From: Oscillospiraceae bacterium
GTDB lineage: Bacteria; Bacillota; Clostridia; UMGS1883
DNA length: 37,347 nucleotides
Direction of reading: 5' to 3'
NCBI GenBank assembly: GCA_022508735.1
Contig: JAFLUQ010000005.1
Span: 1-37,347 of the forward strand
Shown here: positions 18,593 to 22,676 of the stretch, in pieces
Layout of the letters: each line of letters begins with the position of its first letter
Numbering within the stretch: the first letter of the stretch is position 1
The notes under the pieces: model-generated
The model's input: the letters and a program-made list of their open reading frames with translations, nothing else
What the model was told of the DNA's origin: nothing
Database searches by the model: none
Translations under genes and position numbers: made by a program

Positions 18593-18827
18593 GTATCTCA
18601 ACCCCCATAAGAGATTTTTCTCCATTCTATACTAATTTTATTATACACCCAAATAATTAAAAAAGTATTACAAAACTCCGGATAATTATAATTTAACACA
18701 AAATCCTGTTCATAATTTTACCTTATGCCCTATTGTTTGGCACAATGCACAAAAATCACTTACAATATATATGAAAATTAAACAAAGTCAATCTTGCAAT
18801 TCCACCTTAGACCTGCTATAATATGAA

Positions 18828-18913
18828 CGTACCCGATGAATGGGTACGAAAACTTTTTTTCATTTTCCCTCCTTTTTTAGTGGCAGACCGGATTTGTCTG
18901 CCATTTTTTTTTT
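18828..18913 (+). ncRNA. Candidate small RNA gene, copy 1
   Basis: TTGCAA (18794-18799)-17 nt-TATAAT (18817-18822); 5' hairpin CGTACCC-GATGAAT-GGGTACG; CATTTTCCCTCCTTTTTT; terminator TGGCAGAC-CGGATTT-GTCTGCCA-T10. Confidence 0.8.
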
Positions 18914-19020
18914 GCGCTCCGTAGTGTTTTGTGCATGCTGCATAAAATTTCTTTTGATAAATTGTGAAGTTTGAACAGATTGCATCTTGTGAGGCAACAT
19001 AATATCTGCTATAATACAGA

Positions 19021-19104
19021 TGTACTCGATGAGAGTACATAAAACTTTTTTCATTTTCCCTCCTTTTTTAGTGGCAGACCGGACTTGTCTGTCATTTTTT
19101 TTTT
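19021..19104 (+). ncRNA. Candidate small RNA gene, copy 2
   Basis: TTGTGA (18987-18992)-17 nt-TATAAT (19010-19015); 5' hairpin ATGTACTC-GATGA-GAGTACAT; same central block; terminator TGGCAGAC-CGGACTT-GTCTGTCA-T10; 193 bp downstream of copy 1. Confidence 0.8.
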
Positions 19105-21726: not shown

Positions 21727-21875
21727 TGTGGCATTACACAAATAACACGAATGAATATTGTAGAAATTTCACAAAAATAGAATTTTTTTAATAAATTTAG
21801 AAAATCACTATCTTTACCAAGGCCTCATACGATTTATATAATGAAAGGTGCTATCGAGGAAGGAGGTGAAAAAAG

Positions 21876-22676
21876 GTGAAAAGTATAAGAAAAATTTTTG
21901 CCGCCATAGCGGCAACAACACTGCTTGTTTCCGGTTTCCCGGCCGCAACACCGGTCGGTGCGGCTCAAAAAAATGAAAATGCAGCCACCAACGTTTCCCT
22001 CCCCTTTAACTATAATTCCGGCGACTTTATGCGGAATTTCAAAGGAACATTGGCAGCCAACGGAAATGTAGGCACCTTTGCTTTTGATTTAACACCCATG
22101 GTCAAACGTGCCTACGCTAAAGGATACATCAACGACAATAAGGAAATGGATATACATATCAGAGTTTCTGACGATCCTTCTATTGACTCAGGCGTTACGA
22201 TATCTTCTGTTGTAATAGATAGTGAATTTGGTACTCTCCACACCGAAGTAACAAATCTGACGGCCAATGGAAATTCGGCAGTGTGCACAGTTAATTACGA
22301 CTTTTTTTATACTGTTCTAAATCCCGACTATATTGATGGTGTACCTGAGATAGCAATTGAAGTAGACACACCTCTTGACAGCGCTACAGTGAACACATCA
22401 ACAGTTCTTATAACATATTGGGACATGAACCGGGAAGTTATATACAATGAGTTTGATCCCGCCTCTTCTTCTGAAGCTATCAATGTATATCTTGGTCCCG
22501 ATGGTAAAACAATTTATATCAAGCTTAAACCGACAGGGAGAAAAATTGTCATGAAAACAGATTTAACCGAAGACGTGCATTGCACCCTTGCAAATTTGAT
22601 CCTGACTACCGGAATAAAAACGCAGGACGGCGTTTCACTTGCAAATGATAAGTTCATCAAAGTATATATTTTATAA
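21876..22676 (+). CDS. Uncharacterised secreted protein
   Basis: 266 aa; signal peptide MKSIRKIFAAIAATTLLVSGFPAATPVGA; GTG start after aaggaggtga SD; beta-rich composition, no family recognised. Confidence 0.75.
   Translation: MKSIRKIFAAIAATTLLVSGFPAATPVGAAQKNENAATNVSLPFNYNSGDFMRNFKGTLAANGNVGTFAFDLTPMVKRAYAKGYINDNKEMDIHIRVSDDPSIDSGVTISSVVIDSEFGTLHTEVTNLTANGNSAVCTVNYDFFYTVLNPDYIDGVPEIAIEVDTPLDSATVNTSTVLITYWDMNREVIYNEFDPASSSEAINVYLGPDGKTIYIKLKPTGRKIVMKTDLTEDVHCTLANLILTTGIKTQDGVSLANDKFIKVYIL

Follow-up and report, generated by a model that had tools for sequence, protein, structure and literature searches.

In Firmicutes, small RNAs (sRNAs) of the RsaE/RoxS type carry a C-rich single-stranded motif directed against the Shine-Dalgarno (SD) sequence. 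The multicopy sRNAs of the LhrC family in Listeria expose C-rich motifs that pair near the SD of mRNAs for envelope and secreted proteins. LhrC is reported to repress the adhesin LapB (PMC4132741). In Streptococcus, the csRNAs (ccn genes) of the CiaRH regulon consist of two stem-loops around an unpaired region complementary to the SD and AUG, occur in several similar copies, some of them adjacent, and additively repress comC and transporter genes at the start region (PMC3091779, PMC4507080). These anti-start regions of the csRNAs are poorly conserved (PMC3091779).

The window analyzed here is the whole 37,347-nt stretch of contig JAFLUQ010000005.1 from an Oscillospiraceae bacterium, and it holds two tandem units that, judged from their sequence and that of their relatives, are very likely free-standing genes for a real, conserved, and apparently undescribed sRNA family. 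Their features are as follows:

18794-18822, plus strand: promoter of copy 1 (TTGCAA at 18794-18799, 17-nt spacer, TATAAT at 18817-18822), with TGC before the -10 (extended -10).
18828-18913, plus strand: sRNA copy 1, predicted transcript of ~86 nt (fold; covariance model R1, 94.0 bits).
18828-18848, plus strand: 5′ hairpin of copy 1, CGTACCC/GGGTACG (fold, covariation).
18855-18876, plus strand: invariant unpaired core of copy 1, TTTTTTCATTTTCCCTCCTTTT, anti-SD and anti-AUG (complement AAAAGGAGGGAAAATGAAAAAA; unpaired in the fold).
18879-18913, plus strand: intrinsic terminator of copy 1, stem-loop at 18879-18905 with a 10-bp stem and ten T at 18904-18913 (terminator scan, covariation).
18987-19015, plus strand: promoter of copy 2 (TTGTGA at 18987-18992, 17-nt spacer, TATAAT at 19010-19015), preceded by TGC.
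19021-19104, plus strand: sRNA copy 2, predicted transcript of ~84 nt (fold; covariance model R1, 98.9 bits).
19021-19039, plus strand: 5′ hairpin of copy 2, TGTACTC/GAGTACA (fold, covariation).
19046-19067, plus strand: invariant unpaired anti-start core of copy 2 (fold, pattern match).
19070-19104, plus strand: intrinsic terminator of copy 2, stem-loop at 19070-19096 and ten T at 19095-19104 (terminator scan).

An earlier note, made from the letters of the window, had described two tandem plus-strand units of one family, ~85 nt long and 193 bp apart, each with a -35 box, a 17-nt spacer, TATAAT, a 5′ hairpin, an unpaired block, and a terminator with 10 T. Every one of these elements was found in both copies, with the 193 bp measured between the -10 boxes. 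The two compensated changes from C-G to T-A that it saw in the 5′ hairpin are real, and the central block is indeed identical save for one T (7 T after AAAAC in one copy versus 6 in the other); copy 2 additionally carries one T immediately 3′ of its 5′ hairpin. Folded alone, each unit forms two stem-loops, no more and no fewer, and leaves the middle open (-25.7 and -21.9 kcal/mol for copies 1 and 2, respectively), well beyond chance when compared with dinucleotide shuffles (z = -4.9 and -4.2). Between positions 18600 and 19250, we counted six terminator-like sites versus 0.3 expected and nine promoter-like sites versus 2.7 expected. A search of the host genome returned only these two copies.

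Like the csRNAs, the units are small monocistronic genes with an intrinsic terminator, present in multiple copies, whose two stem-loops enclose an unpaired region complementary to the SD and AUG. In contrast, the anti-start region is variable in csRNAs and is here invariant over an order. The direct repeat recognized by CiaR (NTTAAG-N5-TTTAAG) occurs in 0 of 42 promoters of the family, and the csRNA nonamer [A/C]UCCUAAA[A/C] is absent, the copies reading CUCCUUUU, and AAAACUUUUUU after the first hairpin. Compared by these motifs and by design, the family appears to work like csRNAs yet is not one, and we see a csRNA-like architecture without sign of common origin. With LhrC, it shares multiple copies and a proposed C-rich pairing near the SD, but it has one long anti-start core where LhrC has several UCCC loops; with RsaE/RoxS, it shares a C-rich single-stranded anti-SD motif, but CCCUCC is here combined with CAU and U6 in another structure. 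Neither class was matched via Rfam. The window showed no match to any Rfam 15 family at the gathering cut-off (the earlier note had recognized no named family), and a scan of 20 related loci at the same cut-off gave one tRNA and nothing else. Raising the E-value limit to 10 produced weak matches only, inconsistent between families and models (e.g., RsaF at 29.9 bits, where the cut-off is 60). The core sequence was found in no sRNA paper within the open-access literature searched.

Ten copies from the host genus served to build a covariance model (R1), and relatives were recovered by all three of BLAST, exact pattern, and covariance model. Within the host's order, the covariance-model search of related genomes proposed in the earlier note gave R1 matches in 26 of 28 genomes, and in 14 of 14 of good quality; we discount a weak match in G026, which lies inside an apparent coding sequence. 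In 24 of the 28, the 22-nt core is present without any change. Outside the order, 392 drawn genomes of the class yielded the core in five, belonging to three Clostridia families, f10, f19, and f67 (G034; G043, G077, and G197; G290), and in a phylum-wide draw of 300 genomes it was present in none of the 299 besides the host. A reversed-pattern control gave 0 matches in all draws. This appears to be an sRNA family not described before, present in almost all genomes of a single order of gut Clostridia, most of them uncultured. Genomes hold one to four copies, both tandem and dispersed; tandem pairs were seen in G008 and in several members of the host genus. The analysis covered about 40 distinct copies (39 aligned, 40 scored for promoters, and 42 for upstream motifs).

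When aligned to the model, the 39 copies show standard pairs in 93.5% of pair cells and changes on both sides in 14 of 17 pairs, involving both hairpins. The covariation score was 0.334 versus 0.162 for shuffled alignments and at most 0.067 for slid controls, a margin that is large even though the alignment, being fitted to the structure model, is biased towards structure; none of 500 shuffles attained any of the five measures. Given that it rests on 39 copies, we regard the covariation as firm, where the single pair in the window would alone have been thin, and the proposal that a structured regulatory RNA was duplicated and kept is thus supported by both the order-wide family and its covariation. 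The 5′ hairpin reads GTACTC/GAGTAC in the host genus and GTACC-GAAAA-GGTAC in other genera of the host family, has longer stems in family f3, and gives way in families f2, f19, and f67 to an A/C-rich leader with no evident hairpin. Such linear leaders (e.g., ATACCAAACACAACAAAC) lie upstream of the core at loci L055, L056, L058, L169, and L171. The linear leader in these three families suggests that the 5′ hairpin was gained later. In two genomes, G006 (L068 825-927) and G007 (L069 889-992), we also noted a hairpin-like insert, GTGGCGCTG..., between the core and the terminator.

These changes from clade to clade mark the hairpin as the variable part of the RNA and the core as the fixed part; in the sequences compared, it is the block, rather than the hairpins, that is invariant across the whole order. 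Taken as its reverse complement, the core UUUUUUCAUUUUCCCUCCUUUU spells out exactly a translation start, AAAAGGAGGGAAAAUGAAAAAA, and AAAAGGAGGGAAAATGAAAAAA, the reverse complement of TTTTTTCATTTTCCCTCCTTTT, contains an SD, AUG, and two AAA codons in the correct order. The core is unpaired in the sRNA fold. This anti-start nature of the block is the main clue to function and was overlooked in the earlier note; the core sequence itself would indicate the mechanism, namely occlusion of the SD and AUG. Two viral contigs also carry the sequence AAAAGGAGGGAAAATGAAAAAA, exactly, where a gene appears to begin, from which it follows that it is a natural and usable start sequence. A phage origin of the family was considered and rejected, as both of these viral matches lie opposite a gene start and are not sRNA genes. 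The only altered core seen, CATTTTCCCCTTTTGATG, is that of the G010 copy (L224 1500-1580), the 5′ hairpin of which is fully re-paired (GTCTC/GAGAC). G010 is also the sole f1 genome without an Hfq match, a single case that proves nothing.

A sigma-A-type promoter of the form TTG-16/18-TANNNT precedes every one of the 40 copies for which sufficient upstream sequence was available, with a 17-nt spacer in 35; the scan took the best-scoring site, and the TTG and -10 are also discernible by eye. The promoter, the loss of which in homologues the earlier note had named as grounds against its proposal, is retained in all copies scored. A further conserved block precedes the -35 in 42 copies (18760-18793 and 18950-18986 in the window), of which 41 have a T 16 nt ahead of the -35, and shows a bias to TGT at -24 to -22 and to A at -10; an UP element or a site for a regulator would be possible identities. 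In the host genus, the neighboring genes encode PBP1A and DUF815 (the latter assigned by Pfam, other neighbors being named from their translations), and the copies sit just upstream of the DUF815 gene. Elsewhere, the neighbors are a UvrB-like gene and another gene in genus g4, an SMC-like gene in f2, and other genes in further clades. Since the neighbors vary by clade, the RNA is probably trans-acting. Its own promoter and intrinsic terminator, together with a location independent of the regulated gene, agree with what is generally seen in trans-acting sRNAs.

In the mechanism we propose, each unit would be its own gene for a trans-acting sRNA of ~85 nt, the 5′ hairpin protecting the RNA end and the terminator hairpin ending the RNA. 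The ~30 nt between the hairpins would remain single-stranded and base-pair to the start regions of mRNAs, CCCUCCUUUU to the SD, CAU to AUG, and UUUUUU to the AAA AAA of codons 2-3. Such pairing would block 30S binding and so repress translation, perhaps with faster decay, and the one to four copies could raise the dose or permit separate control, as in "sibling" sRNAs. We infer transcription, in-cell pairing, and repression from gene anatomy, structure, core invariance, complementarity, and the variable neighborhood, and consider a multicopy sRNA that represses translation by blocking the SD and AUG of mRNAs to be the probable reading. The implied spacing between the SD and AUG is short (4 nt), so most targets would need a bulge. 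With its invariant anti-start core, the family lends itself to testing whether one sRNA can control translation broadly.

A further point against this model is that invariance over 22 nt goes beyond what loose pairing with several targets would call for. The same invariance, which exceeds that of the csRNAs, would fit a core that is mainly a protein-binding site (e.g., for Hfq on U-rich stretches), making the RNA a protein sponge or decoy and the complementarity a by-product; the core is U-rich, and Hfq is encoded by the host, 20 of 21 genomes of its family, and the single f2 genome. However, while Hfq is present in f2 and otherwise in f1, it had no match in G010 or in any of the six f3 genomes, of which five retain an unaltered core together with the structure, so Hfq does not accompany every carrier. 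Moreover, a protein would not require perfect anti-SD, anti-AUG, and anti-AAAAAA segments in order, and we consider this reading unlikely. A mimic of the 16S rRNA 3′ end, acting as a general competitor or SD trap with no defined target set, seems less probable still: CCCUCCUUUU does resemble the 16S anti-SD tail, and no conserved single target was found, but the flanking CAU-UUUU and UUUUUU are equally invariant and lie outside any anti-SD, and very high RNA abundance would be needed.

The position of the copies next to and upstream of the DUF815 ATPase gene in the host genus could point to a cis-acting leader or attenuator of that gene. This is very improbable and was rejected as largely refuted by the change of context, since the RNA stands beside unrelated genes in other clades; the copies also have their own promoters and strong terminators at their ends, and no competing anti-terminator fold was seen. 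The reverse complement of the core, AAAGGAGGGAAAATGAAAAAA, would make a good gene start, so the signal might instead have been the SD and ATG of a small protein gene on the minus strand. Frames from the would-be ATG (4 to 157 aa) are conserved in neither length nor sequence, with no conserved protein after MKK(V/S), and the promoter, terminator, and covariation all match the plus strand; we rejected this reading and give it almost no weight. Tandem copies are common among repeats, but copies arising by chance or as non-functional intergenic repeats are effectively ruled out by the covariation, the order-wide presence, and an invariant core amid diverged surroundings.

Under the anti-start model, candidate targets were sought in sampled stretches from three genomes of the host genus, with duplex energies computed for 301 gene starts. 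Of 270 starts, ATGAAAAA was present in 18 of 58 signal-peptide-like genes versus 6 of the 212 remaining genes (odds ratio 15, p = 4e-9), the signal-peptide call being a simple hydrophobicity rule, and block duplex energies were stronger for the signal-peptide-like genes (p = 1e-4). This concentration of AUG-AAA-AA starts among signal-peptide genes makes mRNAs of secreted proteins the likeliest targets. In the host's own genome, the exact or near-exact start pattern gave, besides the two sRNA genes, no match at zero to two mismatches and one at three; a gapped pattern gave five genes, mostly secreted. Among own-genome candidates, the best was a gene for a rhamnogalacturonan lyase of family 11 (PF21348, G000:C240) with a glycoside hydrolase family 88 gene beside it. 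Its start has a predicted duplex of -57 kcal/mol with the whole RNA and, as an outlier of the sample, -40.5 with the block, against a block background over the 301 starts with a mean of -17.7, sd of 4.6, and minimum of -31.8. A hand Gumbel estimate gives ~2 genes per 2200 as strong as this candidate. We do not claim it as a target, since it is about the best of a genome expected by chance and the match is not kept, the extra complementarity being absent from its orthologues. High scores for genes of this lyase family occur in two genomes of the genus (G000 and G006), but the search gave no target that is conserved among orthologues.

A more speculative extension, which we think possible but rather doubtful, is that the family serves as a "secretome brake", its invariant core damping translation of many mRNAs for MKK- signal-peptide proteins, often polysaccharide-degrading, together instead of acting on a few specific ones. 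The family may connect a post-transcriptional switch with secreted enzymes such as pectin lyases. Locus L081 (G000:C240:7000-10443) is a pectin-degradation run of GH88, FG-GAP/RGL11-like, and RGL11 genes, the last of which is the gene with the best complementarity. Within the window, the minus strand at 21860-21917 carries a weak match to the model (21.5 bits, E = 0.002) that is antisense to the start of a gene for a secreted-looking protein (~21876), and no other start in the background sample pairs more strongly than this one.
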